Assembly: GCF_021295345.1 (NCBI RefSeq)
Contig: NZ_JAIMJB010000008.1
Span: 1-64,000, forward strand
Reading direction: 5' to 3'
Length of the DNA stretch: 64,000 nucleotides
Source of the DNA: Motilimonas eburnea
Lineage (GTDB): Bacteria; Pseudomonadota; Gammaproteobacteria; Enterobacterales; CBDFNC01
Every line of letters starts with the position of its first letter. The first letter of the stretch is position 1. Positions 26,615-46,292 of this stretch are shown one piece after another. Both the position numbers and the translations under genes were made by a program. The notes under the pieces are model-generated. The model ran no database searches. It was not told where the DNA came from and saw only the letters and a program-made list of their open reading frames with translations.

Positions 26615-26685
26615 GGTGCTCTCCTTAAGCGGGAACACCCCCAAAAAGGGAGGCTCCCCTTTTGGGTTGGTTAGTGGTTAGTTAA
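26615..26685 (-). promoter_or_regulatory. Switch-like SD leader
   Basis: Hairpin A (CCCAAAAGGG with CCCTTTTTGGG) follows the upstream stop. GGTGTTCCC can instead pair with GAGAGCACC, covering the Shine-Dalgarno. Confidence 0.55.
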
Positions 26686-27162
26686 TCATGCTCGCTCAGC
26701 AAGAAACTGATTGATGATTAATCGAACGGTCTCAGCTTTACTTTCGCTGATCATTTTCTTGGCCATTCTTCTTGCTCTAAGACGAAAACTAGCCATTTGC
26801 GACTCTCGGGCAGACCAATCAGGAATGTCCTTATCGTCATATTCTTTGGCAAGCGCGACCATTTGTTGCTCTAGGAACGCTTTTTCATCTTCGGTAAGTA
26901 CAGGAGCACCTTCCGCTTTGAAGTTTGGATCAGGAGCAAGGATGAACCCATAGCTCATGTTATCAAAGCGGGGGCGGAACCCTTCAAAATACACCGAACA
27001 CAACTGCTCCACCTTCTTTTTAAGCATGGGTGATGCAGTTAGGTACTCTTGCGTAAAAAAGGGCACTTGGTAGTGAAAGTTAAACCCTTCACCGTCAAAG
27101 TTGACCTTAACGCCGCTACCTTCTAGGTATTGGTTTAATTCGCTGATTAGTAGGTTTTCCAT
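26686..27162 (-). CDS. Hypothetical protein
   Basis: 158 residues, acidic N-terminal half and basic helical C-terminal half with R-L-R-A-R-R-M-A-K-K. No family recognised. Confidence 0.6.
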   Translation of the reverse strand: MENLLISELNQYLEGSGVKVNFDGEGFNFHYQVPFFTQEYLTASPMLKKKVEQLCSVYFEGFRPRFDNMSYGFILAPDPNFKAEGAPVLTEDEKAFLEQQMVALAKEYDDKDIPDWSARESQMASFRLRARRMAKKMISESKAETVRLIINQFLAERA

Positions 27163-27234
27163 AATAACGTCCTCATATTGGTTAATTGAGGCGTTAGGAC
27201 TCCCATACGGGAGGTAACGCCCGTTTGGGTTGGT
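27163..27234 (-). promoter_or_regulatory. Switch-like SD leader
   Basis: Arm 27188-27196 (TAACGCCTC) can pair with the SD arm 27165-27174 with one bulge, or its TAACGCC with the upstream arm 27215-27221 (GGCGTTA), which encloses a CTCCC/GGGAG hairpin. The two folds exclude each other. Confidence 0.6.
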
Positions 27235-27975
27235 TTATTGAAACATTTTTAGCTCTTCTATAAAGTCTCTCTCGTGCAATCCATCTTGTTCCAATACTTC
27301 TTGATACAGCGCATCCAATTCAGGTAGCAATCGGCGCGTGTCTTTTTCAGCATCGGTGACAAAGGTGGCTTTAAGCAACTTGGCTTTTTCATCGTGTAAG
27401 TGCTCTAGCTTTGCGTTGAGCTCATACTCGTATGCTTTTAGGAAAAGCCATTGCTGGTTTTTTTCCTGCGCAAGCTTTCTCTGCATACGAATCGTTAAGT
27501 TGCTGTTGAACAACTGTCGTGCCCAATTTAATTCAGCGTCATTAAAAACTTCGACTTTATCCATTATTTTGGCTGTGACAAAGTTTTTTGCTAACAGAAC
27601 CAAATCAGCCTCTTTGTTCCAAGATCTTACCTTTTCTCGCAACGTCGCCTTGCGGCTTTCTGATGTGTTTTTGGTAAAAAATTTAAAGTGGCTGTACTTG
27701 ATTCGGATGATGAATCGATCTTCCAATATTTCCACATCATGAATACTTGAAAAGTTCGGTTGTTCGTCCCCAGTAATGCATTTTTCCTCTAAAAATAATC
27801 TATCTGGCACTTCACTCTTTTGAATGGTTACCGTCACTTCATTAGAAATCGTGAACATATGTTCGAGCTCTATCTCCCCAAGGCATTTAAGCTGGAATCG
27901 CTCGCCATCTAGTTGCTCTGGGTTGAATGTGTAATGCTTAACATCGAATTTGGTTGTTTCTGTCGTGACTAGCAT
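27235..27975 (-). CDS. Hypothetical protein
   Basis: 246 residues. Beta-rich first half, charged coiled-coil-like second half (about 150-215). GAGAGGAC before the ATG. No recognised family. Confidence 0.6.
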   Translation of the reverse strand: MLVTTETTKFDVKHYTFNPEQLDGERFQLKCLGEIELEHMFTISNEVTVTIQKSEVPDRLFLEEKCITGDEQPNFSSIHDVEILEDRFIIRIKYSHFKFFTKNTSESRKATLREKVRSWNKEADLVLLAKNFVTAKIMDKVEVFNDAELNWARQLFNSNLTIRMQRKLAQEKNQQWLFLKAYEYELNAKLEHLHDEKAKLLKATFVTDAEKDTRRLLPELDALYQEVLEQDGLHERDFIEELKMFQ

Positions 27976-28056
27976 ATTGTCGTCCTCTCTTTGTGTTTAG
28001 AGGGCGCAGTCCCATAACGGGTACTGACGCCCGTTAGGGTTGGTTGTTTAATTGGT
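27976..28056 (-). promoter_or_regulatory. Switch-like SD leader
   Basis: A hairpin of about 12 pairs (GGGCG, CAGT, CCC with GGG, ACTG, CGCCC) competes with pairing of CGCCCTC to the SD region GAGGACG (six of seven pairs). Confidence 0.55.
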
Positions 28057-28431
28057 TTAACTTCTCATTAGATTGACGAATTCAATATGCTCTTGCAGCG
28101 CACCGCGCTTGACCAGATCATATTTAATCGCACCCATGGCCGAATCAATGCCGTTTACTGCATCTGAATGCGGATAGTAGGGGTACGTGTCACTGCTCGC
28201 CTTCCAGTAGTTACCAAAAGGTGAAAGCAGTTCTCTTAACGCGACGGTTGAGCCAAATTGCAGGGCGTTTTTCATTTGCTCTGCATACTGGTTGTCTTGC
28301 TTTTCCTTGTTTACCGCTTTTTCAAGCAGAGCCAAAGCATCAAGACGATCCGTGGCACTCAGCGTATCGCGGAGTTTGGTCAACGTTCCTTCTAGCGAGT
28401 AGTAGTTATTTAACTGTATTGTGTCGCGCAT
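28057..28431 (-). CDS. Hypothetical protein
   Basis: 124 residues, mainly helical, no recognised motif. Start at 28431 set by AAAAGGAA, a different Shine-Dalgarno from its neighbours but sequestered in the same way. Confidence 0.6.
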   Translation of the reverse strand: MRDTIQLNNYYSLEGTLTKLRDTLSATDRLDALALLEKAVNKEKQDNQYAEQMKNALQFGSTVALRELLSPFGNYWKASSDTYPYYPHSDAVNGIDSAMGAIKYDLVKRGALQEHIEFVNLMRS

Positions 28432-28490
28432 AAATGTTCCTTTTCACGATAGCAAAAGGATACTGCCCAAGGGCAAGTACCCTTGGGGTG
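28432..28490 (-). promoter_or_regulatory. Switch-like SD leader
   Basis: SD hairpin: arms 28438-28444 and 28454-28460, a perfect 7 bp (TCCTTTT/AAAAGGA). Competing hairpin: 28456-28463 with 28477-28484 plus inner TGCCC/GGGCA, about 13 bp. Confidence 0.65.
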
Positions 28491-29291
28491 TTATGCAGTC
28501 AGCAGTGAGTTAAGCCATAACCCATCGCTTGATGATGATGCAATAGGCTCAAGGCTGGGCTTGATAAACTTACTTATCTCTTCCCTGCCTTCGTCTAACA
28601 CAGCTTTGAGTGGCTGATACAAGCCTTCCCAAGTGCCTCCAGGTTGCTTAAAAAGAGCAGTCGAATTTATTCGATTTGAATAGATCACTCTTCCTTCTTC
28701 ATTTGACCACACGTTGACCATCAAAGAGCCCAGAAATAGGTTGCCAAAAAAGGCCGCTTTCACTATTTCGTACTTCTCTTCGTCTAGTCTCCAGCTGATG
28801 TACTCATCTAGCTCATCTATATCGTGACGAGCCATGACCACTACATTTAGGTTTTTGGTTTTTAACTTCCAAATTACCTTAGAGTCACTGGTTGACTGAT
28901 AGATCAATTGGAATCTAGCCAACAGTTGAGCCTTGATGCTCTCAAGCTCACGCTTAACACAGAGTGTTAACCACTCTAGTAAACGTTTTTGCATTTTTGA
29001 GCATCCCTCATCATCACTGATGATGTATTCAACCGTGAACGGTCCTGGCACCCTTTTTACAGTTATCTCAATCTGCTTGAGAGTGAGCAGTAAGATCAGG
29101 CGCTCTTTTTCAAATTGACTAAAAACCTTAAAACCTTCAACTTTTTTAACCAAGGTTTCGGTTGTCAGCGTCCCGGCCAGCGTTAAGTTATCCATGCCGG
29201 CATCTTCGACTAAGAACTCGTGTAATTTGAGTCCATGATAGCCAAAATGTTTTAACTTTTGGTTTGCTGAAAAGTGGTATAGACCTTTCAT
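28491..29291 (-). CDS. Member 1 of a three-gene paralogous family
   Basis: 266 residues. Shares with the products at 29650 and 30531 an N-terminal K-x-x-L-x-x-x-G-Y motif, a central helix with K-R-E-L-x-x-I-K-A-Q-L, the segment K-T-K-N-L-N-V-V-V, and a following acidic loop and beta region. Function unknown; the duplication suggests alternative or hetero-oligomeric versions. Confidence 0.65.
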   Translation of the reverse strand: MKGLYHFSANQKLKHFGYHGLKLHEFLVEDAGMDNLTLAGTLTTETLVKKVEGFKVFSQFEKERLILLLTLKQIEITVKRVPGPFTVEYIISDDEGCSKMQKRLLEWLTLCVKRELESIKAQLLARFQLIYQSTSDSKVIWKLKTKNLNVVVMARHDIDELDEYISWRLDEEKYEIVKAAFFGNLFLGSLMVNVWSNEEGRVIYSNRINSTALFKQPGGTWEGLYQPLKAVLDEGREEISKFIKPSLEPIASSSSDGLWLNSLLTA

Positions 29292-29374
29292 AGTGTCCTC
29301 CTAAGACATTGGTAAATGCTGAGGGCACTATTCCGCTAGGGGAATAAATGCCCCTGCGGGTTTTGTTTACTTGA
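29292..29374 (-). promoter_or_regulatory. Switch-like SD leader
   Basis: ATAGTGCCCTC pairs with the SD arm GAGGACACTAT (10 of 11), or upstream in a GGGCA-TATTCC/GGAATA-TGCCC hairpin. Confidence 0.6.
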
Positions 29375-29638: not shown

Positions 29639-29649
29639 ACAGCCTCCTA

Positions 29650-30447
29650 TCAAGCTGGGATCAACGAGCTTAGCCAACCAATTGAGTTAACAGGCTCGGT
29701 GAGCACTGCCACTTTTTGGGTTTCGGGCAAATCAAAGAAGGGGCGCTCTTCTGTGATCATCTTAGAGACAATCTCAGACAAGCCTTGCCAATGGCCATTT
29801 AGGGTTTGGTAAATAGCGCATCCCCCTTTGGTCATGGTGTAGATGTTTACCATGTCGCTTTGATTGTAAATATCCACGGTGACCGTGCCATACAGCATTG
29901 AACCCAAGATCGCATGTTTAACCATGTGATCATATTCTTCTTCATCCCCGAGCTCCAAAAGGCTGCCGTCCTCTGCATCATCGTATGTAATTGACACGAC
30001 GACGTTTAAGTTTTTGGTCGTTTTATCCACCAAAACTTTCTGCTTACCACGGGCTTCCATGATAAGCCTAATAACCGCGTACATCTGGTTTTTTAGATGG
30101 CTTAGCTCGCGCTTTATCTCCTTCTCTAACCAGCTAATAAGCTGCTTTTGTTTAGAGTTGAACACTGGAGCATTGGTAACCAGCCATTCAACTGAGAACT
30201 TGTCTTTACGCAAGCTATCAAGCTGAAGCTGCTCTTGCCAAATAAGAGCGGTCAAATCCCACTGTTGCCGATCATTAAAGATAGGCAGCCTACCGGCTTT
30301 ATCCACCAGCGCTTGAGTGGATAAACTGCCAAAGACAGCAATATCATCAAAAGGATGATCGCCGTATTCCCAGTAAAGCCCATCAAGCTCGCCATAACCA
30401 TGCTCGGTTAAGGTTTTCTTCACGTAATAGGTGATTAGTGCATCCAT
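29650..30447 (-). CDS. Member 2 of a three-gene paralogous family
   Basis: 265 residues, paralogue of the product at 28491: shared G-Y-G-E-L N-terminal motif, W-L-E-K-E-I-K-R-E-L helix, T-T-K-N-L-N-V-V-V and G-S-M-L-Y-G-T-V-T-V-D. The ends of both proteins are also alike (W-L-S/N-S-L-I/L-x-A). No known domain. Confidence 0.65.
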   Translation of the reverse strand: MDALITYYVKKTLTEHGYGELDGLYWEYGDHPFDDIAVFGSLSTQALVDKAGRLPIFNDRQQWDLTALIWQEQLQLDSLRKDKFSVEWLVTNAPVFNSKQKQLISWLEKEIKRELSHLKNQMYAVIRLIMEARGKQKVLVDKTTKNLNVVVSITYDDAEDGSLLELGDEEEYDHMVKHAILGSMLYGTVTVDIYNQSDMVNIYTMTKGGCAIYQTLNGHWQGLSEIVSKMITEERPFFDLPETQKVAVLTEPVNSIGWLSSLIPA

Positions 30448-30530
30448 AGTGTCCTCCTAGAACATTTTGAAATGCAGAAGGCACTATTCCGCTAGGGGAA
30501 TAAATGCCCCTGCGGGTTGGGTTTAAAGGT
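30448..30530 (-). promoter_or_regulatory. Switch-like SD leader
   Basis: Closely related to the leader at 29292-29374, with one extra G-U pair in the SD stem. Next to the upstream stop are three tandem copies of AAACCTTT. Confidence 0.6.
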
Positions 30531-31472
30531 TTAAAGGTTTAACGTAAGCGGATTGTTGGTTGAAACTTGCCAAAGAGATGTAAACAACGCATCTTCTTGC
30601 TGCTGTTTCTCCAACGCTTCGCGCTCTCGCTGCTGCTCGTGTTCCTGCGCAATGGCAGTCTCACGACGAAACGCTCTGGCCACTCGCCCAGCATCACGTT
30701 CAGCTACATTTTTTCGCTCAACACCAAGCTCTTTTAAAGCAAGATTGGCGTAGTCACGAATAAACGACCTGACGAAATCGTGGTAAATCAGCGGGTATTT
30801 ATCCCCCTTCTTAACCAACTGAGTGTTACCGTAATACTCATTCGCCAGTAGCGTATGCTCATCATCGACATGTAAGCCGATATAAAGCGCACCGTGAACG
30901 AGTACGCCGGCAAGCATTTGTTCGATGCATTCATCGATAACGGCTTCATCCCACATTTCAACGCAGTCGTCGACGTTATCGCAGTAAACGAGCTTGACCT
31001 CAAGCTTAAGGCGCTTGGTTCGGATCGTTTTGATCTCAAACGCGCCATCTAAATCATCCACTGGACTCGCTTCAATTAAGGCATAACAATCAGCCAAAAT
31101 TGAGTCCAGTGTGTCGGTTACCTCATCACAGATGTAAGCAACTAACTCGTCTAGCATTTGCTCCATTTCTGGTTCTGCTAATCCAGCGTTAATCGCTTCA
31201 AAACGGATTGATTTAGAGTGGTAGTAGCCTCCTGAGTGACTTACCTCGATGTACACATCCTCATCATCGAGAAATTTGACTAACTCCCTGATGTCTTTGC
31301 GTGACATAGACAGCTCGGTTGCTTTTTCTTTGCACTCGCTGTTACTGATGTAGCCCGTACAGCAAATGCCGTCACCTTGGCAATAACCGAGTGAAAAATG
31401 AATATTTTCCAGCTCGTCATAGCCTTTTTTCTTTAGGTTGTTTCGCGCATGGCGCTCAATGTAGACCTTCAT
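30531..31472 (-). CDS. Member 3 of a three-gene paralogous family
   Basis: 313 residues from the ATG at 31472 (GGAGGAC upstream). More diverged, but keeps the N-terminal K-K-K-G-Y-D-E-L motif, the helical centre and the beta segment K-L-E-V-K-L-V-Y. It adds a charged Glu/Gln/Arg-rich coiled coil near the C-terminus (about 265-300). Confidence 0.6.
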   Translation of the reverse strand: MKVYIERHARNNLKKKGYDELENIHFSLGYCQGDGICCTGYISNSECKEKATELSMSRKDIRELVKFLDDEDVYIEVSHSGGYYHSKSIRFEAINAGLAEPEMEQMLDELVAYICDEVTDTLDSILADCYALIEASPVDDLDGAFEIKTIRTKRLKLEVKLVYCDNVDDCVEMWDEAVIDECIEQMLAGVLVHGALYIGLHVDDEHTLLANEYYGNTQLVKKGDKYPLIYHDFVRSFIRDYANLALKELGVERKNVAERDAGRVARAFRRETAIAQEHEQQREREALEKQQQEDALFTSLWQVSTNNPLTLNL

Positions 31473-31723
31473 ACGTCCTCCAAAATTTAAGTAATTTTGC
31501 AGACGTATTATTCCCATGCGGGTACGTCCGCAGGGCGGGTGGTAAAAACGGCATTTTGTTTGCCGTGCTTGATTTTAAAGTGTCGAGCAACACTGACTAA
31601 TTGAAGGTTTTAACCAAAAGGTTCGGTTAATAGTTCAATTAGGTTGAAACTGCTTTGCTTTGAACTTTGATGACTCAAAGTGCAAGGAAAAGCAGTTGAG
31701 CCCATATGGACTCAACTAAGGCG
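31473..31723 (-). ncRNA. Long structured leader RNA, copy 1
   Basis: About 250 nt, strongly similar to 33285-33538. Stems (minus strand): GTTGAGTCC/GGGCTCAAC; AACTGCTTT/AAAGCAGTT enclosing ACTTTGA/TCAAAGT; CTAATTGAA/TTCAATTAG enclosing TTAACC/GGTTAA; AGTGT/ACACT; ACGGCA/TGCCGT. It ends in a switch: TACGTC pairs with upstream GGACGTA or with GACGTA at the SD, with CAAAATT/AATTTTG inside. Confidence 0.65.
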
Positions 31724-32194: not shown

Positions 32195-32240
32195 TGCGTT
32201 TTCCTCCAGTGATTTTGGTTTTCTGCTAGGGTGGTGAGGC

Positions 32241-32588
32241 CTAGTTGTAATGATTTAAGGATTTGAGCTCTCGATAGCGCCAGGCCACCTTTTCGACCAG
32301 ATTATCTCTGGTTAAATCAGGCGCCTCTATCGGTAGTAAGGTAAGGTTAATTATTTTGCTGTTGAGCAGAAGATGCTTCAATCTCGTCCAGACAAATGGT
32401 GATATTTGCCCGTAAGCGAGCAAGCCTTCAACATGAGTCAAGAGATCCTGCGTATTCGCTTCAAGCTCCCAGCACCATGAGCACTGACCAGTTGCTTCAT
32501 AAGTTGAATCATGGTCGCAAACATGATCACAAACGATGCACTCACCGTCTATAACACTCAATTGACCACAACGGTTGCACTCTTTCAT
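32241..32588 (-). CDS. Hypothetical zinc-ribbon protein
   Basis: 115 residues. The N-terminus has C-x2-C...C-x2-C followed by more Cys/His (C-D-H-D...C-S-W-C), a likely zinc-binding module of about 40 residues; the rest is helical. Function unknown. Confidence 0.6.
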   Translation of the reverse strand: MKECNRCGQLSVIDGECIVCDHVCDHDSTYEATGQCSWCWELEANTQDLLTHVEGLLAYGQISPFVWTRLKHLLLNSKIINLTLLPIEAPDLTRDNLVEKVAWRYRELKSLNHYN

Positions 32589-32642
32589 ATATCCTCCATA
32601 TTGAGGGATACGCTCCCCTAAGGGCGCGCCCTCAAGGGTTTG
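32589..32642 (-). promoter_or_regulatory. Switch-like SD leader
   Basis: CCCTC can pair with upstream GAGGG or, within TATCCCTC, with the SD GAGGATA. An AGGGC/GCCCT palindrome precedes. Confidence 0.5.
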
Positions 32643-33284
32643 TTAGTTAGCTAGTTTTAATGGTTCGTCACCTTGCACAAACTCATTAGCGAGCTTGTCG
32701 TATGACATGGACATGCCTGGGGTGAAAACCTCCATAAAGTAGGCTACTTCGGGCATTTTTTTGGCGAGGTCTTTTATGACTTCAGTTTGACGTGCTAGAA
32801 CATCACCAAACTCTTTCTCATTAAAAGCTTCTACTTCATCTATCGCTTTTAAAAGCGCAGAGAGTAGATCGGCAGCCTTCACTACTTTATGAACTTCTTC
32901 GACTGGGTACATAGCCTGAGTCATATGCTCGCGCATTTCATAAGGAAGCGTGTTAATTATCTTCCTTTTTGCTATTTCTGCAATTTCAGCACATGCCTCT
33001 GACATTCTTAAGGTCATGTTCTTACATACAAAACTTGTATCCTGACATACACTTTCCTCAAGATCATGCACCATGGCCGCTTCGAGTAAGACGCCCAAAT
33101 CCCAGTCTGTTTGTTTGAAAACTTTACTGTGTATCATCCACAGTATGTGAGTGATCATCACCGTGTCCATACTGTGTGAATGCACAGATTCTGGTATTTT
33201 TACGCGCATCAAAGGCCAACGAAATTGATCTTTTAAACGCATGACTAGGCCTAAGAAGCCTGATTGTTGGTTGATTTTTGTCAT
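32643..33284 (-). CDS. YfbR-like 5'-deoxynucleotidase (HD domain)
   Basis: 213 residues, near the 199 of YfbR. HD-type metal ligands are visible: H-S-H-S-M-D-x-V-M-I-T-H near residue 34, V-H-D-L-E-E near residue 72, and K-A-A-D-L-L near residue 137, with the YfbR-like segment Y-F-M-E-V-F near the end. YfbR removes phosphate from deoxynucleoside monophosphates. On a plasmid it may tune nucleotide pools during replication. Motif-level similarity along the whole length makes this a good call. Confidence 0.8.
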   Translation of the reverse strand: MTKINQQSGFLGLVMRLKDQFRWPLMRVKIPESVHSHSMDTVMITHILWMIHSKVFKQTDWDLGVLLEAAMVHDLEESVCQDTSFVCKNMTLRMSEACAEIAEIAKRKIINTLPYEMREHMTQAMYPVEEVHKVVKAADLLSALLKAIDEVEAFNEKEFGDVLARQTEVIKDLAKKMPEVAYFMEVFTPGMSMSYDKLANEFVQGDEPLKLAN

Positions 33285-33538
33285 AATACGACCTCCAAAA
33301 TAAAAGTAATTTTGCAGACGTATTGTTCCCGTGCGGGTACGTCCGCAGGGCGGTTTGTAAAAACGGCATTTTGTTTGCCGTGCTTGATTTTAAAGTGTCG
33401 AGCAACACTGACTGATTAACAATAATCACCAAAGGGTTTGGCCATTAAGTTAATCAGGGGTGAAACTGCTTTGCTTTGAACTCTATCACCTAGAGCGCAA
33501 GGAAAAGCAGTTGAGCCCATAAGGACTCAACTTAGTGA
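33285..33538 (-). ncRNA. Long structured leader RNA, copy 2
   Basis: Homologous to copy 1, but the paired bases have changed together: CTGATTAAC/GTTAATCAG replaces CTAATTGAA/TTCAATTAG, and CTCTA/TAGAG replaces ACTTTGA/TCAAAGT. The outer GTTGAGTCC/GGGCTCAAC, ACGGCA/TGCCGT and the SD switch are kept. Confidence 0.65.
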
Positions 33539-35375: not shown

Positions 35376-35384
35376 GCTCACCTC

Positions 35385-35549: not shown

Positions 35550-35886
35550 GGTCAGCCTCCTTGCCCAGCTCACGATCAATCCGGTTAGGAGTGAAACGGC
35601 CAGACAATGTGAGGTTTGTGGTTTGCAACACCTGCTTACGCATGGTGTTCTTGCCACTTTGACCTCTCAAGTCTTTTTCACGCTGAACATAGTTTTGCTC
35701 AAGCTCAAGCATGAATCTGTGATCTGATAATAACCGGCGGTACTTCGCCTTTAGCTGTTTCAGATCGGTTCTTGAACGGCTAATTAAAGCCGCGACTAAT
35801 GATGGTATTGCCGCTGCAATAATCAAAGATAAGCCTTTAATCACCTCAATCAGCATTAGCCCTTCTTGTGGGTTTGCGTTACTCAT
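35542..35886 (-). CDS. Small membrane-anchored protein with coiled coil
   Basis: 114 residues from the ATG at 35886 (GGAGGAT upstream). One membrane span (about 11-34), then a basic coiled-coil region. No family recognised. Confidence 0.6.
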   Translation of the reverse strand: MSNANPQEGLMLIEVIKGLSLIIAAAIPSLVAALISRSRTDLKQLKAKYRRLLSDHRFMLELEQNYVQREKDLRGQSGKNTMRKQVLQTTNLTLSGRFTPNRIDRELGKEADHE

Positions 35887-35938
35887 ACATCCTCCAGAAA
35901 GGCAGGCAAATTTATTGCCTACCTTATAGTTATCCACA
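35887..35938 (-). promoter_or_regulatory. Hairpin leader
   Basis: AGGTAGGCAA pairs with TTGCCTGCCT (10 bp, one wobble) directly before the GGAGGAT Shine-Dalgarno. Confidence 0.5.
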
Positions 35939-36217
35939 TTAAGCCGCGATGGTGACTTTGTGTGGGGTTGGTTGTTCATCACTCCAGCAATCAAGCAACG
36001 ACTCAGCGTGCGAGATTGCTTGGCTCATTAGGGGTATGTCTAATGGACCGAGAAGTGATATAGGTTGACGTCCATTTTTGTAAATGAACACTTTGGTACC
36101 ATCGCCGAAGTAGTAAATGGCAATGGACTTATTTCGCTTTTTATCCTCTGGGGCGCAAAGGAATTTAACTTCTCCTTTGGTCACAGCAAGACGTCCAAGC
36201 TTTAGGTAGATAGACAT
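35939..36217 (-). CDS. Small hypothetical protein
   Basis: 92 residues from the ATG at 36217, which overlaps the radC stop (TAATG); a GTG three codons earlier is possible. No recognised motif. Coupled to radC. Confidence 0.55.
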   Translation of the reverse strand: MSIYLKLGRLAVTKGEVKFLCAPEDKKRNKSIAIYYFGDGTKVFIYKNGRQPISLLGPLDIPLMSQAISHAESLLDCWSDEQPTPHKVTIAA

Positions 36218-36720
36218 TAGATCCACCCCCGCTCTGCGAACGAAGTGGCTCCGGTGGCTGATACCACAAAGTGATCCAGCAACCTTACATCCACCAGCCC
36301 TAGCGCTTCATTTAAACGCAGTGTAATACGACGATCTGCTTGCGAAGGTTCTGTTTTACCACTAGGGTGATTGTGATATAGCACTATCGCAGCGCTGTTT
36401 CGAGCAAGACAGCTTTTCACTACCTCCCTCGGGTGAACTGACGCGCTATCTATCGTACCAAAGAATAATTCTTCAACATCAAGGATTTGATGCTGGTTAT
36501 TCAGATGAATTACGCCGAATACCTCTCGCTCATAGCTTTGAGAGATGCTGCGAATGTGTTCTTTCATCATCACCGTGCTGCTGATAGCAACCTCACCTGC
36601 TTTCATTTTATTGATGGCTATCTCACGAGCCATCGTTAAAATTTCCGCTTCGGTTAATGTTACTCCGCGTTTTAGGCGATAAGTTCCAGGCGCTTCTTTA
36701 ACTTGAATGAGTTTTTGCAT
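36217..36720 (-). CDS. radC: RadC-like JAB-domain protein
   Basis: 167 residues from the ATG at 36720. The metal-binding JAMM/JAB motif is intact: H-N-H-P-S-G followed by S-Q-A-D. Plasmid and island RadC-like proteins are common in SXT-type elements; the name comes from an old repair link that is no longer supported, and the true role is unclear. The N-terminal helix-hairpin-helix of long RadC is absent, as in other mobile-element copies. Confidence 0.85.
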   Translation of the reverse strand: MQKLIQVKEAPGTYRLKRGVTLTEAEILTMAREIAINKMKAGEVAISSTVMMKEHIRSISQSYEREVFGVIHLNNQHQILDVEELFFGTIDSASVHPREVVKSCLARNSAAIVLYHNHPSGKTEPSQADRRITLRLNEALGLVDVRLLDHFVVSATGATSFAERGWI

Positions 36721-36794
36721 GGTAGTGTCCTCCAAAGACAATATTGAATAGAGGACACTATCCCTGTAGGGGAAGTATCCCCTGTAGGGTTGGG
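36721..36794 (-). promoter_or_regulatory. Switch-like SD leader of radC
   Basis: Perfect 10-bp SD stem TAGTGTCCTC/GAGGACACTA (36723-36732 with 36751-36760). AGTGTCC can instead pair with GGATACT (36774-36780). Confidence 0.7.
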
Positions 36795-37235
36795 TTATTT
36801 AATTTTGTGCGGTGTTTGCAGCAGCTTTGCCATGACATGCTCTGCCATGCGATGTTCACTCTTTAACAAATCAAGAATGTCCTTCCGTGTTTTGGGCGAA
36901 TAAACGCTTAGCTTTTTCTCCAAATCACATCGGATATCTTGCAGCAAAGAGTTGTCCGGCATTCCTTTGTTGATTAGGTATGCAGCTCTTGCAACTTGCA
37001 ATGCCGATAAAATCTCCTGCTGCTCCACCGAGAGCTTTGGCGGTTGGCAGTCGATTTTATATTTATATGTGATCGGCACTTTGAGTTGTTTGATGAATTT
37101 ATCAAGCAACAACAGACCAATGATGGCTTGCACTAGGAAAATTAAACCTTCAACCATGACGCCTTGCATGAAGTTTTCAAAACTTGTGCCTGCACAAATG
37201 AGCAGGATTGCGGCCAAGTAATAGCGTTTATTCAT
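36795..37235 (-). CDS. Membrane-anchored hypothetical protein
   Basis: 146 residues from the ATG at 37235 (AGGAGG upstream). Two hydrophobic segments (about 5-20 and 28-46), then a soluble domain. Overlaps the 32-residue gene upstream by eight bases. Confidence 0.6.
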   Translation of the reverse strand: MNKRYYLAAILLICAGTSFENFMQGVMVEGLIFLVQAIIGLLLLDKFIKQLKVPITYKYKIDCQPPKLSVEQQEILSALQVARAAYLINKGMPDNSLLQDIRCDLEKKLSVYSPKTRKDILDLLKSEHRMAEHVMAKLLQTPHKIK

Positions 37236-37326
37236 CTGAGCCTCCTGCCTTAAAGTTTTCAGGTGCTTTACCAAGTGCTGTGCTTACGCTAAGCACTGTG
37301 CAAATTAACCATTTAATTTTATTCAT
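37228..37326 (-). CDS. 32-residue secreted or membrane peptide
   Basis: Short gene with GGAGG before the ATG at 37326 and a switch leader. The first 20 residues look like a signal peptide (Lys, hydrophobic core, Ser-Thr-Ala). The mature tail is only about a dozen residues, so it may stay as a membrane peptide. Overlap with the next start suggests coupling. Confidence 0.6.
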   Translation of the reverse strand: MNKIKWLICTVLSVSTALGKAPENFKAGGSDE

Positions 37327-37395
37327 GCATCCTCCAAGGATAAAACAAAGAGGATTTAACCCAACAAGGGCAAAATCCCCCGGTTGGGTTTATGG
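37327..37395 (-). promoter_or_regulatory. Switch-like SD leader
   Basis: SD stem ATCCTC/GAGGAT (37329-37334 with 37350-37355). Upstream alternatives are AACCCAAC/GTTGGGTT (37358-37365 with 37383-37390) and GGATTT/AAATCC. The SD is GAGGAT here rather than GAGGAC, and its partner has changed to match. Confidence 0.65.
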
Positions 37396-39249
37396 TTAGA
37401 ACAGTTTTTCTTTTAGGGCTTGACCAACTGTTTTGTGTAGCGTTGCAACATCATCAATGACAACAAAGCCACACGCTTCAAAACCGAGCAATCGATCAGT
37501 ATTTATCCCAAAACCCACAACTTGTATGCCAAGTGCATTCGCTTCCGCTATTGCTCTTGACGTGGCATCGGGGCAATTAGGATCGCCATCGGTGATAACA
37601 AACAGCAATTTCTTGTTTGCTTGTTGTTGGCTTAACTCCAAAACAACGGAATTAATAGCCTCACCTGTTGGCGTTCCACCACTGTGCGATACGCCGAAAC
37701 GCTTCACATTGGGTGCCAGTTTGTCACTAAAGCCTACCACTTGATTGAGAGACCACCCCACTTGCGGATCACTATAAGGATAGAACCCTACATTGAACCG
37801 TACATCGGGTATGGCATCCAAGGCATAAGCCAAGGCAAGCGCACTCTTACACGCTTTTTCCATGCGCTCATATCCCATTGAGCCAGATCTATCAATGAGA
37901 ATGCTAACAGCTGCATTCTCTTTTCTGACCAAGGTTTCACGCTTGAAAATCGCTATATTTCCAGCTGGCACACCCGCAAGCAGGTCTTGATCAAACGAAT
38001 CCCCTAGCCTGTCGTAAGACGCAGGCTTATGGTTTCGGTCAAACAGCCCTTTTTGTAAAGCTCGTCTAACAGCGAAAGACGCTTTTTTGGCTTCCTTTAC
38101 ATCCATGCTGTATTCGCCTGGAAATTTGTGGATAGGCAACAAATCGTTAACCTCTCCTTCACGATAAGCCTCCGTTGAAGCTTCTTCCAGTTTCGCTTTG
38201 ATTAGCTCATGGAAGTCATCAACTAGATCTTCTGGTAAAGCATCAAGAATGCCTTGCAACACTCCTTTTTCCAGATCGCTTCGTCCCTGCTTTGCTTGAC
38301 TTGAGCTTGAATCATCACCACCTTGGCAGCTGTCGCTGCCTTGGCTTGAGTCATCATCACCTTGGCCGCTGTCGCTACCTTGGCTTGAATCATCATCACC
38401 TTGGCCGCTGTCGCTACCTTGGCTTGAATCATCATCACCTTGGCCGCTGTCGCTACCTTGGCTTGAATCATCATCACCTTGGTCGCTGTCGCTACCTTGG
38501 TTTGAATCATCATCATCTTGGTCGCTGTCGCTACCTTGGTTTGAATCATCATCTTGGTCGCTGTCGCTGCCTTGGTTTGAATCATCACCTTGGTCGCTGT
38601 CGCTACCTTGGCTTGAATCATCTTCAAACAACTTCAACGCTTCAAGCGCCAAGTCTAGCGCATCCTGCTCTGTCACAACGTGACCTAGCTTTTGGTGGAT
38701 AGCTTCAAGACCTTGGTAGATATCTTCCGGCAAAAGCTCTTGCAATAAATCCCAAGTCCGCTGAGCATAATCGCTCAACAAAGTTTGGTTGCAGTACTCC
38801 GCTCGACCACGATAGAGCAGTCCCATCTGAACTAATGAAGCTGGCTTCATCTGCTCAGGCTCGGGGAACCAGCCATTTGTCAAACACCACTTGATAGTGT
38901 TGTTAAGTGTTTTGACTGACCCAGGCCACTCATTCATCACGAGTTGTTCCATCCGGACGTCTTCAAAACCATTCTGAAAGCGCTCACAAAGGGTTGAAAT
39001 TTTACGCGCTTTTAGAACTAAGCACTCTTTTGAGTGTTCATGATGGCCAAATTCATGGTCATTAAAGCCCTCTAGTGCCTCTAGGTACTCAATGTCATCT
39101 GCTGCACCGGCAGGCAGATACACACTATTTTCTGTGTGAAAAGCTTGATTTCCACTAATGTGGACATTTAGGCCTTTTCGTTTTGTCATAATCCGGCCCA
39201 TTATTTTCAAGCGGGCTTGGATTTTTTTTAGGTTAGTTTTTTGTTTCAT
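37396..39249 (-). CDS. CobT-like VWA-domain protein with acidic repeat tract
   Basis: 617 residues from the ATG at 39249 (AGGAGGAC upstream). The C-terminal VWA domain has the MIDAS sequence D-R-S-G-S-M. The N-terminus has H-E-F-G-H-H-E, a zinc-metallopeptidase-like helix also seen in CobT-like proteins. Between them lie eight Gln-Gly-Ser-Asp repeats. CobT-like VWA proteins pair with MoxR/CobS ATPases; the ATPase and DUF3150 genes lie 3-6 kb upstream in this array, as in SXT and IncA/C elements. Likely a chaperone-type remodelling complex; its target is unknown. Confidence 0.8.
   Translation of the reverse strand: MKQKTNLKKIQARLKIMGRIMTKRKGLNVHISGNQAFHTENSVYLPAGAADDIEYLEALEGFNDHEFGHHEHSKECLVLKARKISTLCERFQNGFEDVRMEQLVMNEWPGSVKTLNNTIKWCLTNGWFPEPEQMKPASLVQMGLLYRGRAEYCNQTLLSDYAQRTWDLLQELLPEDIYQGLEAIHQKLGHVVTEQDALDLALEALKLFEDDSSQGSDSDQGDDSNQGSDSDQDDDSNQGSDSDQDDDDSNQGSDSDQGDDDSSQGSDSGQGDDDSSQGSDSGQGDDDSSQGSDSGQGDDDSSQGSDSCQGGDDSSSSQAKQGRSDLEKGVLQGILDALPEDLVDDFHELIKAKLEEASTEAYREGEVNDLLPIHKFPGEYSMDVKEAKKASFAVRRALQKGLFDRNHKPASYDRLGDSFDQDLLAGVPAGNIAIFKRETLVRKENAAVSILIDRSGSMGYERMEKACKSALALAYALDAIPDVRFNVGFYPYSDPQVGWSLNQVVGFSDKLAPNVKRFGVSHSGGTPTGEAINSVVLELSQQQANKKLLFVITDGDPNCPDATSRAIAEANALGIQVVGFGINTDRLLGFEACGFVVIDDVATLHKTVGQALKEKLF
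38300..38625 (-). repeat. Tandem repeat inside the VWA gene
   Basis: Eight units of 36-39 bp encoding S-S/N-Q-G-S-D-S-x-Q-G-D-D-D. The units are near-identical in DNA, so the tract is recent and probably length-variable. It forms a highly acidic flexible linker. Confidence 0.8.
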
Positions 39250-39517
39250 AACGTCCTCCTGTGACTTCAAAGAAAGAGAGAACGCCCCAAAGGGGTGTTT
39301 TCTAATCCCCTTCGGTCAGGTTAGTTGTGTTGATAGTTAACATTACTGATTATTTGGTAATCAGGTTCCGGGTTTTAAGTGCTGAAACAGGCACTGAGTT
39401 TATTCTCAACTGAGAAAAAGGTTTTCAAAGTGTCGAATAAACAGGGAAACTCTTTGCGATGCCCTGTCATTGCAAGACATTGGAAAGAGCCAGCCACCGT
39501 TAAGTGGCTGAACCCAA
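39250..39517 (-). ncRNA. Long structured leader RNA, copy 4
   Basis: Stems: GAGTCC/GGGTTC; CAGCCAC/GTGGCTG; CTCTTT/AAAGAG enclosing GACAG-GG-CATCGCAAA; GTTTATTC/GAATAAAC enclosing TTCTCA/TGAGAA; AGTGC/GCACT; GATTA/TAATC. It ends in a switch at the SD of the VWA gene (CGTTCTC with GAGGACG, one G-U). Confidence 0.6.
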
Positions 39518-40007: not shown

Positions 40008-40015
40008 ATTGCCTC

Positions 40016-41167: not shown

Positions 41168-41269
41168 GGGGACCTCCTGAGATTCACGAAAACCCCAAAA
41201 AACTCCCGCAACGCAGGAATACTTTGGTGGTTCCCGCGAACCGGTTGAAGAGAGAGTGTTCGCTCGCCG

Positions 41270-41374
41270 CTATTTGCTTTCGCTAAATAACGGTCCCCAC
41301 TTCCAGACGGCGCCAGCTACATGGCCTTTGCTGTCTAGGACAATTTTTTTGCTTTCATTTTTTGCTTTGCTCAT
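41270..41374 (-). CDS. 34-residue hypothetical protein
   Basis: Short frame with CTGGAGGAC before the ATG at 41374 and a switch leader. Basic N-terminus (S-K-A-K-N-E-S-K-K), then V-W-K-W-G-P. No family recognised. Confidence 0.6.
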   Translation of the reverse strand: MSKAKNESKKIVLDSKGHVAGAVWKWGPLFSESK

Positions 41375-41447
41375 AAGTCCTCCAGGACGAACCAAAGAGG
41401 AATAGAGCCCCAATCGGGGTTATTCCCCAGTTGGGTTGGTTTGTTGG
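41375..41447 (-). promoter_or_regulatory. Switch-like SD leader
   Basis: GGAATA-CCCC/GGGG-TATTCC hairpin competes with TCCTC pairing to the SD GAGGA. Confidence 0.5.
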
Positions 41448-41750: not shown

Positions 41751-42299
41751 AGACCCTCCAATTACATGCAGGTGATAGTGCCGGCAAGGGCGCATTGTCC
41801 CTGCGTGAAAGTTCTGACAATTATGATTATCAGGCTTCAGTTTTAAAGTGCTGAAACAAGGCACTGGCATTTGTTTTTCCGCTAAGGAAAGGTTCCAAAG
41901 AATCAAAACAAATGGTTGAAAAACCGTTTTACGATGGACTGTCTTAACAGCGCATTGGAAAACAGGATCTGCGGTGAAACTCAAACCAGCCCCACCGCTT
42001 TGTTGAGTTCCACATTTGCAAATTATTCATTACTTAATCATATCTAGCCCACGCAACATATCTAACGAGTGTGGAGCTTTGGTTGCCTAACAATAAGCGA
42101 CTTGCTTACTGTTTTTGGCCTAGTGTGTGTATCAACGCTAATGAGGGTGTTCATGTGGTTGAGAGTGTTACTAGGGGGTGTTTTCTGAAGGGGGTTTCAG
42201 AGGAACTACTGTTTTTGCTACAAGGGGATTTGTAGCAAAGTTGAAAGGATGATAAACACCCGCAAGGCGGGCGCCTATTGAGTGTTTATCATCTTGCTG
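41751..42299 (-). ncRNA. Long structured leader RNA, copy 5, with upstream hairpins
   Basis: Gene-free. From 41751 to about 42000 the plan of copies 3 and 4 returns: GTTTT/AAAAC enclosing AATGC and GACAG-TC-CATCG; CATTTGTTTT/AAAACAAATG; AGTGC/GCACT. Further up are GCTACAA/TTGTAGC (about 42218-42237) and a perfect 12-bp hairpin GATGATAAACAC/GTGTTTATCATC (42248-42259 with 42282-42293), directly after the stop of the upstream gene. Confidence 0.55.
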
Positions 42300-42638: not shown

Positions 42639-42681
42639 CGCTCTTTCCTTCTAAAGAAACAGGGCCGAAACCCTGTGATTG
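42639..42681 (-). promoter_or_regulatory. Hairpin leader
   Basis: CAGGG/CCCTG hairpin, then TTTCTTT pairing with AAGGAAA over the Shine-Dalgarno. Confidence 0.5.
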
Positions 42682-43767
42682 CTAGAAACCACCTAGACCT
42701 AAACCAAAACCAAAGCCTTGATCCATTGCGGCCGCTACCTCAACTTGAGGCACTGGCTCGCTGGTGGCTTGATTGGGGCTAGGTTGTTCGGCGGGTTGTG
42801 TTGGCTCAGGCGCAAATTGCGCAAGGCCACCCATAACTGGGGTTGGAGCTTGTTGTTGAGCTAGAGGAGCAAGCAAGGTGTTATAACCTGTTTTGCTCAC
42901 GTTGCGCAGCTTCTGCTCATCCCCGCAAATGAGGATCCATTTGCAAAGCTGCTCATACGGTGCCCCACTTATCCAACCTGCTTTCGGCAAGTTGTCTAAC
43001 AGCTCCTCAAAAACAGCAGTCACGTTATTAAGTTGTTCATCCAAAAAGCTGAAATTAATCATCTTCTGGAACAAACGCTTAACATAACTATTTATTGGCG
43101 CTTGACCAACGCGGTCGTTGCCTTCTAACTTCTCTGACCAGATGAAATTCGCTTCTTTGCAAATTTCTTGGTACAGATTGTTAGCTGCACTTTCCACCAG
43201 CTCATCTTGATCTTCCTCATATAGAGGCGTGAACGCGATAGGCGGCGTTACGTTGAAGCTAAAGCGGCCTCGAAAAGCATCGACATCCAACTTAAAGCGG
43301 TCAATTAAGTCCGCTACGTTGGTATTATCGAGCTTTAATCGCTCTATTTTGCTGTGGTAGTCGCTGCAGCTTTCGTTCAACTTGGAGTTGAAGTCAGCCT
43401 TGATGCTTTCCACCTCTTCGTAGCACTCTTTGAGCTTACAAATAGGTACAAGCGCTACCCCACCATTGAGCATGGTGCCGTAAGACAAAATCTTACGTTG
43501 TAGCCGGGTGCCAATGGTGTTGACGAATTTGATTTCCTCACGAGGAAACCATCTAATTTTAGATCCAGATATTAGTTCTGAATCTAAATCTCGTCCGTCT
43601 AACGCAATGCGCGCTTTAGGAATAGTGGCCTCGCCACAGCAACCTCCTACACGCCAGGTGACCATGGCACAGCCTTCTTCAAGGGCGGCAACTTTTTCTA
43701 CGACCGCTTTTGCGGCTTCTTTTGCTGCTAACTCTTGGTTTGCTGCTTGACTTGTTTGGTTTTGCAT
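42682..43767 (-). CDS. DUF3150-type partner of the CobS/VWA complex
   Basis: 361 residues. Position between a CobS-like ATPase and a VWA protein, length, and a helical middle with coiled coil (about 115-165) fit the DUF3150 proteins of SXT, IncA/C and T4-like genomes. The C-terminal 60 residues are Pro/Gln-rich and end in a Gly/Phe/Leu tail like that of the second RecT-like protein. Biochemical role not established. Confidence 0.65.
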   Translation of the reverse strand: MQNQTSQAANQELAAKEAAKAVVEKVAALEEGCAMVTWRVGGCCGEATIPKARIALDGRDLDSELISGSKIRWFPREEIKFVNTIGTRLQRKILSYGTMLNGGVALVPICKLKECYEEVESIKADFNSKLNESCSDYHSKIERLKLDNTNVADLIDRFKLDVDAFRGRFSFNVTPPIAFTPLYEEDQDELVESAANNLYQEICKEANFIWSEKLEGNDRVGQAPINSYVKRLFQKMINFSFLDEQLNNVTAVFEELLDNLPKAGWISGAPYEQLCKWILICGDEQKLRNVSKTGYNTLLAPLAQQQAPTPVMGGLAQFAPEPTQPAEQPSPNQATSEPVPQVEVAAAMDQGFGFGLGLGGF

Positions 43768-43860
43768 AATTGTGTCCTCCAGGACTTAGTTAAAAAGCAG
43801 AGGACACAATTACCCCAAGGGGATAATTGGATCCCCTGCGGGTGTGGATAGTCAGTGTGC
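43768..43860 (-). promoter_or_regulatory. Switch-like SD leader of the DUF3150-type gene
   Basis: Perfect 12-bp stem AATTGTGTCCTC/GAGGACACAATT (43768-43779 with 43800-43811) hides the SD. The same TAATTG can pair upstream with CAATTA around a CCCC/GGGG hairpin. The clearest example of the series. Confidence 0.7.
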
Positions 43861-44217: not shown

Positions 44218-44223
44218 TTTTTT
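44159..44223 (-). promoter_or_regulatory. Programmed -1 frameshift signal
   Basis: Slippery heptamer A-AAA-AAG (44223-44217) in frame with the ATPase gene, a four-base spacer, then a stem-loop (44212-44159) of four stacked stems: AGCGG/CCGCT, ACACT/AGTGT, AAGGC/GCCTT and GCTC/GAGC with an AGAT loop. The same heptamer drives frameshifting in E. coli dnaX. Confidence 0.75.
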
Positions 44224-45242
44224 GCAAGATAGGCACTTAGTGGCTTTTCTAATGCATCCGCGAATTTCTTCGCAATCGCATCATTTGCCACCTCAAGCTC
44301 ATCCGCTTCAAGGCCGTTCAAGTAAGTAAAATCTAGCGCGTTTTTCAGCGTTGCCGCTTCACCAAATACTAAACAATACTTGTACCAGTCGACCGTGTTG
44401 CGCACACCAAATGGTGAGCTCACACTGTCTATATCAGGGCTTGCCAATTCACGAATGAAGTTAGCGACCTGCACCATTAACTTACGACCAGCCAAATCAA
44501 TGATCGGACTGATTGCCTTTAAGATTGCTATCTCGTTCTCCATTTCTGGATACGGATGAACCAAAAAGGCAAAGCGCAAGCGAAGTGCGGCATCCCAAGG
44601 CATACACGTTGTGTAACGGGTTGAACCGTTACCGTTGGTGTTGCCAGTGGACATCAAGCGAAATTGCTTATGTCGCACGATGGTTTTGCCCTTTTCCGTG
44701 GTGTGCGGCTTGCCGTCACAAATATCGTGAAGGTGTGATGTTACATCCGGGTTGGCTTTATCCAACTCATCAGCAACAAACATTCCTCCATGTTCATAAG
44801 CCTGCATTAAGTCAGACTCAATGTGGCGGGTAATAACACCTGCTCCTTCTTCCACCAGAATTGAGTAGCCTTCAACAGATTGAACTCGCATCTGGCCATG
44901 GAATGTCAATTGGAACATGGGCTCGTTAAAGCAAGCACACAACCAGCGCGCTAGCTCTGACTTACCTGCACCTGACTCACCCCAACAATGCAGTGGCTTG
45001 TAGCAATTTGCTTGCGCAAACCACCAATTCACCGCCATCATTGCGATTTTCTTGTTAGGAAAATAAAGAGGATTTAAATCAGGCACCGCTTCATGCTTAT
45101 GCTTGCGAACAGGCACTTGCATGGCTTTTGCTCCATCTGGTAAATCAATGTTTTTCAACACTTCACCCAGAGGCTTCATTTCCATCTCGTTATAGTTAAC
45201 TTGAGATGGGTTTACATTTAAGTTTGTTACTTGTGCATTCAT
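44211..45242 (-). CDS. CobS/MoxR-like AAA+ ATPase
   Basis: 343 residues in the zero frame. Walker A is G-E-S-G-A-G-K-S (88-95), Walker B is F-V-A-D-E-L-D-K-A, and sensor-like S-T-G-N-T-N follows. This is the CobS-type AAA+ that works with VWA proteins; all three partners are in this array. Its last sense codons, Ala-Lys-Lys-Ser, form the slippery site, so two products are predicted: this one and a 460-residue form. Confidence 0.85.
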   Translation of the reverse strand: MNAQVTNLNVNPSQVNYNEMEMKPLGEVLKNIDLPDGAKAMQVPVRKHKHEAVPDLNPLYFPNKKIAMMAVNWWFAQANCYKPLHCWGESGAGKSELARWLCACFNEPMFQLTFHGQMRVQSVEGYSILVEEGAGVITRHIESDLMQAYEHGGMFVADELDKANPDVTSHLHDICDGKPHTTEKGKTIVRHKQFRLMSTGNTNGNGSTRYTTCMPWDAALRLRFAFLVHPYPEMENEIAILKAISPIIDLAGRKLMVQVANFIRELASPDIDSVSSPFGVRNTVDWYKYCLVFGEAATLKNALDFTYLNGLEADELEVANDAIAKKFADALEKPLSAYLAKKS

Positions 45243-45314
45243 ATCAGTGTCCTCCAGGACAATAAATGAGCGAATACACCCCCTAAAGGTGTGTTCGCCC
45301 TTCAGGGTTAAAAG
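45243..45314 (-). promoter_or_regulatory. Hairpin leader of the CobS-like gene
   Basis: GCGAA-ACACC pairs with GGTGT-TTCGC; a TGTCC/GGACA mini-hairpin covers the SD. Confidence 0.5.
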
Positions 45315-45854
45315 TTATTTATTTATGTGTTCAGGCATCATATCTAACAAGGCGCTTTGAATTTGCCGTGCATAGTCGTGATACCCCATTTCTTCCAAAA
45401 CTCTCACAAAGAACTTGGTTTCAATCCAGTCCGCTTCAGTTTGAAGCTCTCCAAGATTGCCCTTGCCTTTCGATCCAAAATTCATGATGTTATGTATTTT
45501 GTCGAACGTATGCTGAAGCATCCCTTGCCAAAGCAAGTCGATGTCTGCATCCGTCCACACGAAGTGGCAAGTTTTGTTCTCCAAATCAAAATCGGGATTG
45601 AGCATCACCATGTTCAGGTACTTGCTGTCACCGCTTTCAATTTTTTGAATAAGATCTTTGTCCAAGGCGTGCTCAATGCAGCGAGGATCATCCCAATGGG
45701 GTTGACGCTTCATCTGCATTTTGCGAAATGATGTTGTTTTCACCGTAGCACGCTTAGCGCGTGGCTTGCGCTGCTTGGGCACGTCATCAATGGCTTGAAA
45801 CGTCCCTGAAAACATATCACCTTGCAGTTCACTTCTTTTTGTTGTTGCTTTCAT
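45315..45854 (-). CDS. Hypothetical protein
   Basis: 179 residues from the ATG at 45854 (GGAGGACAC upstream). Basic N-terminal 45 residues (K-P-R-A-K-R), then a helical domain with several Trp and His. Could bind nucleic acid through its tail; no family recognised. Confidence 0.6.
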   Translation of the reverse strand: MKATTKRSELQGDMFSGTFQAIDDVPKQRKPRAKRATVKTTSFRKMQMKRQPHWDDPRCIEHALDKDLIQKIESGDSKYLNMVMLNPDFDLENKTCHFVWTDADIDLLWQGMLQHTFDKIHNIMNFGSKGKGNLGELQTEADWIETKFFVRVLEEMGYHDYARQIQSALLDMMPEHINK

Positions 45855-45928
45855 GTGTCCTCCAAAAGCAAGGCACACGACTCCCAAGAGGGAATAATGC
45901 CCTCGCTGGGTTGTTGGTTTTGAAGTGA
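45855..45928 (-). promoter_or_regulatory. Switch-like SD leader
   Basis: TGTGCCTT pairs with the SD region GAGGACACA, or TGCCTT with upstream AGGGCA. Confidence 0.5.
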
Positions 45929-46099
45929 TTACGCTAGGAAAATATTTTCTTTGGCTTCCGCTTTAGTGCGCTGTGAGGCGTACAAAAGCTTGATCCACTT
46001 AGCGTCCTGCCCAAGACTTTGAAGCTTCTTACGAAGCTTGTTAGCACGGCGCCCTTGGTACGCACCGGTGGCTTTACGGGCTTTTGATTGGATACTCAT
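45929..46099 (-). CDS. Small very basic protein
   Basis: 56 residues from the ATG at 46099 (AAAGGAGG upstream), rich in Lys and Arg, likely nucleic-acid binding. Start overlaps the stop of the 43-residue gene (ATGA). Confidence 0.6.
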   Translation of the reverse strand: MSIQSKARKATGAYQGRRANKLRKKLQSLGQDAKWIKLLYASQRTKAEAKENIFLA

Positions 46100-46227
46100 T
46101 TTGAGCCTCCTTTCTTTTTGCCTTGGGTCAATTGGGCATAGGTGTAGCCAATGCCGCATACGCTAAATAGTGCGCATAAAAACAAGATACACGCGTAGGT
46201 GTACTCTACAGTATGGAAGCTATACAT
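46096..46227 (-). CDS. 43-residue single-span membrane protein
   Basis: GGAGGACGAGCT precedes the ATG at 46227. One hydrophobic helix with two Cys (about 10-32), then a basic tail K-K-K. Coupled to the basic protein that follows. No family recognised. Confidence 0.6.
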   Translation of the reverse strand: MYSFHTVEYTYACILFLCALFSVCGIGYTYAQLTQGKKKGGSK

Positions 46228-46292
46228 AGCTCGTCCTCCAGTTATGGAGGGAGTCATCCCATGAGGGAGTCATCCCTCTTAGGGTTGGTTTA
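46228..46292 (-). promoter_or_regulatory. Hairpin leader with tandem repeat
   Basis: GGGATGACTCCCTC occurs twice in a row; CTCC pairs with GGAG at the SD. Confidence 0.45.

Follow-up and report, generated by a model that had tools for sequence, protein, structure and literature searches.

The attenuator upstream of bet in the SXT element is said, in a review, to be owed to Garriss et al. 2013. According to passages of a review, this attenuator acts strongly on translation and is also present in IncA/C plasmids; these plasmids and the SXT/R391 elements spread many antibiotic resistance genes (PMC4542580). Here, we describe a family of leaders of about 75 nt in a stretch of 64,000 nt from Motilimonas eburnea (contig NZ_JAIMJB010000008.1, positions 1 to 64,000; hereafter the window), where 18 of the 34 start sites examined in a minus-strand gene array (26612-46941, -) carry such a leader. 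These leaders are real, selected and widespread, and very probably they function as cis-acting two-state translational attenuators, each made of four strands. An initial annotation of this DNA had recognized leaders gene by gene in about sixteen gaps. Their occurrence from gene to gene is upheld and their number is 18, while the idea that every gene has its own switch is not, as leaders precede 18 of 34 start sites here and 63 of 96 genes between the first and the last leader in six annotated plasmid stretches.

A leader consists, in order, of a G-poor stretch (in this window often AACCAACCC), a hairpin termed A and a stem termed S over the Shine-Dalgarno (SD) sequence. Hairpin A has the pattern CCC-nnn-GGG…CCC-nnn-GGG, with CCC and GGG terminating both arms. 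In the predicted S, a strand called segment 2 pairs with the segment containing the SD (segment 3). In the alternative predicted fold, P, the GGG and the loop of A (together segment 1) pair with segment 2, the 3′ arm of A folds on itself and the SD is free. When the SD is forced to stay unpaired, most leaders are predicted not merely to open S but to rearrange in this manner, with the 3′ arm of A closed within the loop of P; 92 of the 93 P-state leaders have 3 bp or more in this inner mini-hairpin. In one state the CCC and GGG of the 3′ arm find their partners in the 5′ arm, in the other they pair mutually, which explains the conserved letters: those kept across the window leaders are CCC/GGG in both arms of A, plus GGAG. 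Thus, the description "conserved in shape and not in sequence" holds for the shape and overlooks these letters. Likewise, segment 2 does pair with either segment 1 or segment 3 as initially proposed, but that proposal missed that A forms a separate hairpin, with segment 1 made up of its loop and last G's. A pseudoknot version, in which A remains intact while its loop pairs with segment 2, was rejected: by eye the linker bases are too few, and most of the leaders listed open A in the free-SD fold. In the nine bases before hairpin A of 195 nonredundant leaders, G makes up 0-5% per position and A makes up 90% at -1, values biased by the search model; this G-poor flank could be a rut-like or a protein site.

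The leader of the radC-like gene provides an example. Its hairpin A in the putative OFF fold lies at 36762..36789 (-), the core of segment 1, which would be the partner of segment 2 in the ON fold, at 36774..36780 (-), segment 2 (the anti-SD) at 36751..36760 (-) and segment 3 with the SD at 36723..36732 (-), so that the pairings 36723-36732/36751-36760 and 36753-36759/36774-36780 are mutually exclusive, as had been noted from the outset. The same is true of a second example, 43768-43779/43800-43811 versus a CAATTA/TAATTG stem. In a third, 28438-28444/28454-28460 is indeed stem S, whereas the longer upstream stem taken for its competitor turns out to be hairpin A and can coexist with S; the true alternative is an 8-bp P helix.

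Do the segments of one leader belong to each other? When segments were permuted among the 18 leaders of the window (20,000 permutations), own segments paired better than swapped ones both in P (-11.8 vs -7.6 kcal/mol, p=5e-5) and in S (-12.8 vs -9.2 kcal/mol, p=5e-5); for the leader at 37324-37397 this test took the start as 37325, one base off 37326. Both arms therefore change together, as had been suggested, and a chance origin of the pairings was rejected because swapped segments pair more weakly. The own P pairing ranks first or second of 18 in ten leaders; it is weak and ranks fifth to seventh in five, those of the starts 46841, 46227, 45854, 37326 and 32588. The predicted probability that the SD is unpaired is 0.19 in the 18 leader genes versus 0.45 in the other array genes (15 of 16 scorable; p=0.004), in keeping with the SD sequestration that the initial annotation had predicted.

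Homologous leaders allow these relations to be followed beyond the window. A covariance model, R1, was built from the 18 window leaders; it describes A and S, not P, and recovers its source leaders at 28 to 67 bits. The main set consists of 129 nonredundant leaders out of 211 sense matches, those of the window included, with near-copies (80% similarity or more) removed. Rows dropped were 7 of 129 (six antisense rows and 35884-35976 of the window), 9 antisense rows of 98 and 4 minority-strand rows of 84; the dropped window match, of 16.7 bits, differs in anatomy from the leader family. A held-out set comprises 66 leaders from 20 further stretches, 63 of them usable for the pairing-energy test. 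Segment borders, set by regular expressions, are approximate in the folding, barrier, chimera and held-out tests, in those of ORF distance and mini-hairpins, and in the figures on SD accessibility and T runs.

The swap test on 75 nonredundant leaders gave z -15.5 for P and z -15.5 for S, the automatic choice of hairpin A having mistaken P for A in several rows of this set. In the held-out leaders z was -14.1 for P, -11.1 for S and -0.7 for a control pairing of segment 1 with segment 3. The result for S is partly circular because S is in the search model, whereas the test of P, which lies outside it, is not. Among the 129 leaders, the predicted minimum free energy fold is P in 93 when the SD is left out; at full length, 117 contain S and 112 contain A, and 78 leaders show all three. 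The corresponding numbers in the 66 held-out leaders are 40, 62, 59 and 34. An SD hidden in the default fold and an exclusive pairing that frees it, as expected of an attenuator, are thus both predicted. Chimeras joining A of one leader to the downstream part of another form A in 98.2%, S in 97.5%, P in 11.9% and all three in 11.3% (in the held-out comparison, P in 13.6% and all three in 11.9%). P is mostly lost there while A and S persist, and therefore P is no by-product of the other two. Chimeras with the SD segment of another leader form P in 71.7%, S in 64.6% and A in 59.1%.

Covariation in homologous elements, put forward as a check by the initial annotation, is present in the paired columns of A and S (0.323 vs 0.146; 0 of 500 shuffles; slid versions at most 0.098), as computed on an alignment fitted to that structure with nine antisense rows included. 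In the model alignment only the columns of A and S stand out, not those of P, because P and S impose different registers; the swap tests were used for P instead.

Rows of leaders were found with the covariance model in SXT-type elements, IncC plasmids, Shewanella and Pseudoalteromonas plasmids and other genomes. There are 8 in each of three near-identical elements (L048-L050), which we take from their gene set to be of the SXT type, and 13 in L059. Among 5426 E. coli genomes, 7 have chromosomal copies with 98% identity to the first of the three (L048), and the three listed copies are annotated with Bet, YqaJ recombinase and SSB. At E <= 0.001 and with stricter filters, R1 matches occur in 39 of the 394 genomes from the order; for the class the count is 28 of 369 and for the phylum 20 of 398, the host genome being included each time. 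In the host genome itself, matches at E up to 1 are confined to the array (17 listed; 150 of 489 first-look candidates scored). Another family of this class also has leaders, in genomes of 5-7 Mb (e.g., L088-L090 and L107), so that they are not restricted to the order of the host. At E <= 0.05, no leader was found in 20.7 kb of an Aeromonas plasmid (L075). Since megablast of the array against plasmids gave no match, homologues had been sought through proteins and the covariance model; a CobS-based search for related loci in genome contigs found no relative. Rfam 15 has no gathering match in the window, and between 26000 and 47200 only two chance microRNA matches with E up to 5; as no aptamer family of Rfam was matched, the term "riboswitch-like" is not supported in the sense of a ligand.

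The start codon sets the position of the leader. In eight annotated plasmid stretches, the end of 65 of the 81 sense matches coincides with an annotated start codon, and that of 67 falls within 12 nt of one. The remaining 14 end at ATG (13) or GTG (1) of open reading frames (ORFs) of 17 to 164 codons and probably mark missed small genes, to which the leaders offer a route. Unannotated ORFs of 39 codons stand behind leaders in three Shewanella plasmids (L069:17002-17080, L072:15018-15097 and L073:15411-15483), about 230 nt before a toprim gene, and ORFs of 30 codons, also unannotated, behind leaders in four plasmids (L068:9139-9210, L071:8138-8210, L069:9017-9097 and L073:7107-7186). Between the first and the last leader, the share of genes with a leader is 11/19 in an IncC plasmid (L068), 13/19 in the plasmid of S. 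xiamenensis, 8/13 in that of Pseudoalteromonas, 9/12 in the IncC plasmid of S. baltica, 8/13 in that of S. algae and 14/20 in that of S. aestuarii. Two leaders of the first IncC plasmid, those of an AAA gene (L068:9751-9824) and of DUF3150 (L068:14586-14659), have an identical hairpin A and segment 2, which suggests copying of leaders between genes.

How could the two folds control translation? We infer that in the cell P is the ON state and A+S the OFF state. In the OFF state, the 5′ arm of A would pair with its 3′ arm and segment 2 would cover the SD segment; in the ON state, segment 1 would hold segment 2, the 3′ arm of A (CCC-n-GGG) would fold on itself and the SD would be exposed. For 75 leaders, the calculated energy of the free-SD fold exceeds that of the best fold by a median of 5.7 kcal/mol. 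Along the growing RNA the predicted preference is for A, then for P once segment 2 has been made and finally for A+S once the SD has been made; among the 15 nonredundant leaders of the window, three (37324-37397, 28429-28497 and 26612-26675) are predicted to remain in A before the SD is made. Such an order is consistent with a timer by which mRNA is open while young. The switch might thus be a ligand-free folding timer, by which young transcripts would be translated and finished ones shut, resulting in short bursts, a reading that we regard as tentative and less likely than not.

Several observations weigh against these proposals. In the 75 leaders the control pairing of segment 1 with segment 3 is also preferred (z -2.6, p 0.005; -1.8 without the window), if slightly compared with -15.5. 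P is not preferred before the SD in 36 of the 129 and 26 of the 66 leaders, and the free-SD fold of some leaders, such as that at 37324-37397, keeps A while only S opens. As for the timer, nested refolding barriers calculated for 78 leaders have a median of 18.1 kcal/mol from A to P and 13.5 kcal/mol from ON to OFF, and that from A to P is the lower one in just 8 of 78. With so high a barrier, A, if formed first, should trap the RNA, S would follow and the leader would be OFF; the timer would need a toehold in the loop or a helper. The loop of A contains a median of 4 nt of P, a possible pseudoknot toehold.

Could something other than time open the leaders? A translational relay would have the ribosome that ends at the upstream stop codon cover the 5′ arm of A and free segment 1, so that P opens the next gene. 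The layout would suit it: 14 of the 18 window leaders lie 2-19 nt past an ORF stop, and the distance from the annotated upstream stop to A has a median of 19 nt and is 10 nt or less in 17 of 67 cases. A terminating ribosome, however, probably reaches only about 10 nt beyond the stop codon, and, ahead of the window's ssb leader, the nearest ORF of at least 40 codons is 142 nt away. P is preferred before the SD in 20 of the 28 leaders with no end of an ORF of at least 40 codons within 60 nt, shorter leader peptides not having been searched for, and its frequency hardly depends on the distance to such an end (25/33 at 12 nt or less, 31/44 at 13-25 nt, 17/24 at 26-60 nt). P being equally frequent without a nearby ORF end of this kind, the relay is disfavoured as the sole trigger, and we consider it unlikely. 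Alternatively, a trans-acting factor, protein or RNA, with its gene on the element or in the host, might open A or hold P, and a single signal answered by all leaders would explain why one device stands on many genes. The CCC/GGG of A and the G-poor, A/C-rich flank, common to leaders that otherwise differ, speak for it; but the flank belonged to the search model, which biases its conservation, and a gene of the ProQ/FinO family is absent in the four plasmid records searched, while the host's own genome has one (contig C71). Such a factor seems somewhat doubtful, leaning to unlikely.

In transcription attenuation, P would be an intrinsic terminator, A the antiterminator and S a second lock. That P is preferred before the SD is made would suit a terminator, and in 62 of 131 P-state leaders T fills at least 5 of the 8 bases that begin 0-2 bases after P (34 of 93 in a stricter count). 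Yet such a run follows P in just 1 of 12 P-state leaders of the window, T richness drops with rising GC content of the leader (18/24, 23/47, 16/41, 5/19), and a stretch rich in U ahead of the SD might rather be of use to the ribosome. Moreover, both states would then be OFF, and the bet case is reported as translational in the passages of the review that treat it (PMC4542580). A terminator role of P is possible in the leaders with T runs, not in most of those in the window, and as a general account this one is quite unlikely. Finally, the hairpins might act as DNA, as single-strand promoters, primosome sites or recombination sites; conjugative elements pass through single-stranded DNA (ssDNA), and DNA hairpins of the Frpo type are known there, as parts of a paper on leading regions describe (PMC11541004). 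That the start codon sets the leader position, that one arm is the SD and that the pairing varies by gene and often includes G-U types on the coding strand makes this highly improbable.

The contig to which the window belongs (C70) measures 211 kb, in a genome of 4.59 Mb. Since this contig encodes a TraI_2 (MobH-type) relaxase domain at 119463-120368 and the window contains an F-type transfer region (TraU, TrbC), this DNA probably belongs to a conjugative plasmid or element of the MOBH type. Its minus-strand array encodes SSB, a CobS-like AAA protein, DUF3150, DUF7146/Toprim, a ferredoxin-like protein, CobT/VWA, RadC, a DNA methylase and a YfbR-like protein, together with many genes without a Pfam match, and a comparable gene order is seen in Shewanella and Pseudoalteromonas plasmids. 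Genes of such arrays, among them ssb, bet, exo and radC, presumably serve conjugative entry. Letters differ between genes, perhaps because identical repeats would recombine in elements carrying RecT/Bet. Taken together, a widespread class of ligand-free self-timing leaders before most ssb/bet/cobS-cobT array genes in MOBH plasmids and SXT-type elements, open when nascent and shut when finished, with letters kept different against recombination, can be imagined, though we think the whole of this picture doubtful.

All leaders of the window lie on the minus strand; their scores in bits are those of the covariance model, which was built from these same 18 leaders. The ssb leader (start 46841; 46839..46941, 28.4 bits) is the weakest member and has a longer spacer; its pairings are GAGCATA/TATGCTC in P and TAGTTAtGCTC/GAGCTAGCTA in S. 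It is followed by the leaders of a small ORF (start 46227; 46225..46293, 55.2 bits), in which P is weak with 5 bp, of the gene starting at 45854 (45852..45919, 50.8 bits), of the CobS-like AAA gene (start 45242, AAA_5; 45240..45316, 50.7 bits), of the DUF3150 gene (start 43767; 43765..43851, 52.2 bits), of a 34-codon ORF (start 41374; 41372..41444, 55.7 bits) and of the CobT/VWA gene (start 39249, VWA; 39247..39324, 45.5 bits). Another ends at the ATG at 37326 (37324..37397, 49.5 bits), and then come those of the radC-like gene (start 36720, RadC; 36718..36798, 57.0 bits) and the YfbR-like gene (start 33284; 33282..33359, 40.6 bits). The others precede genes starting at 32588 (32586..32647, 42.4 bits), 31472 (31470..31544, 44.6 bits), 30447 (30445..30525, 67.1 bits), 29291 (29289..29369, 63.8 bits), 28431 (28429..28497, 37.9 bits; SD AAAGGA), 27975 (27973..28048, 56.0 bits), 27162 (27160..27238, 59.3 bits) and 26614 (26612..26675, 41.8 bits).

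Some further features of the window were observed. Positions 31471-31720 and 33286-33535 form a repeat, 86% alike over parts of 173 nt and 51 nt, that covers a leader and about 180 nt before it. As ssDNA, 31545-31723, ahead of one of these leaders, folds far better than shuffled versions (z -6.2); its likening to single-strand promoters (Frpo-like) is by position alone. A shorter pair of repeats, at 39355-39389 and 41824-41858, is 80% alike, and the CobT/VWA gene contains eight copies of a 36-39 nt repeat (38266-38626). On the opposite strand, pointing at the array, are two consecutive RecT-family genes and a gene of 326 amino acids without a Pfam match (23303-26000, +), and a DndB-like gene lies at 21365.

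If most genes of the ssb-bet-exo-cobS/T arrays common to IncA/C plasmids and SXT/R391 elements do have their own switch, the timing of such proteins could be tested with short reporters; the family is experimentally accessible. As an RNA family unmatched in Rfam 15, the leaders also offer a rich natural collection of two-state RNAs.

How do the leaders compare with known systems? Integron attC sites have the core site GTTRRRY, whereas the letters common to the leaders are, by eye, CCC/GGG and the SD. With SD-hiding riboswitches the leaders share the decision of SD access by two exclusive folds; they differ in having no Rfam match. Attenuators of the ermC/cat type likewise have two hairpins, the second covering the SD, and an exclusive alternative pairing. 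There, however, a ribosome stalls on a leader peptide, whereas in these leaders the 5′ arm supplies the competing strand, and P is retained without a nearby upstream ORF of at least 40 codons, shorter leader peptides not having been searched for. In the maturation gene of MS2, delayed RNA folding permits translation before the final SD-hiding fold, which the leaders would resemble if the timer reading is true; that is a single viral gene with other folds, and here the arrangement is repeated on many plasmid genes. In the open-licence literature, most subscription papers being outside its scope, a search for a gene-by-gene leader family found only the bet attenuator. Passages of one paper have nothing on that attenuator (PMC3915882), and passages of the leading-region paper cover single-strand promoters and anti-defence genes and describe no leaders of the A/P/S kind (PMC11541004). 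The initial statement that the array is unlike any operon was therefore too strong: one family member, bet, is foreshadowed in print. The gene and the position are identical, and the bet leaders share the A/P/S anatomy: those of an SXT-type element (L048) and an IncC plasmid (L068) are predicted to fold as A + S, with P as the free-SD fold, although the former is missed by the covariance model at E <= 0.05. The attenuator that passages of the review report for SXT and IncA/C fits the OFF reading of A+S (PMC4542580). There it concerns one gene; here a family stands on many consecutive genes, with a defined second fold.

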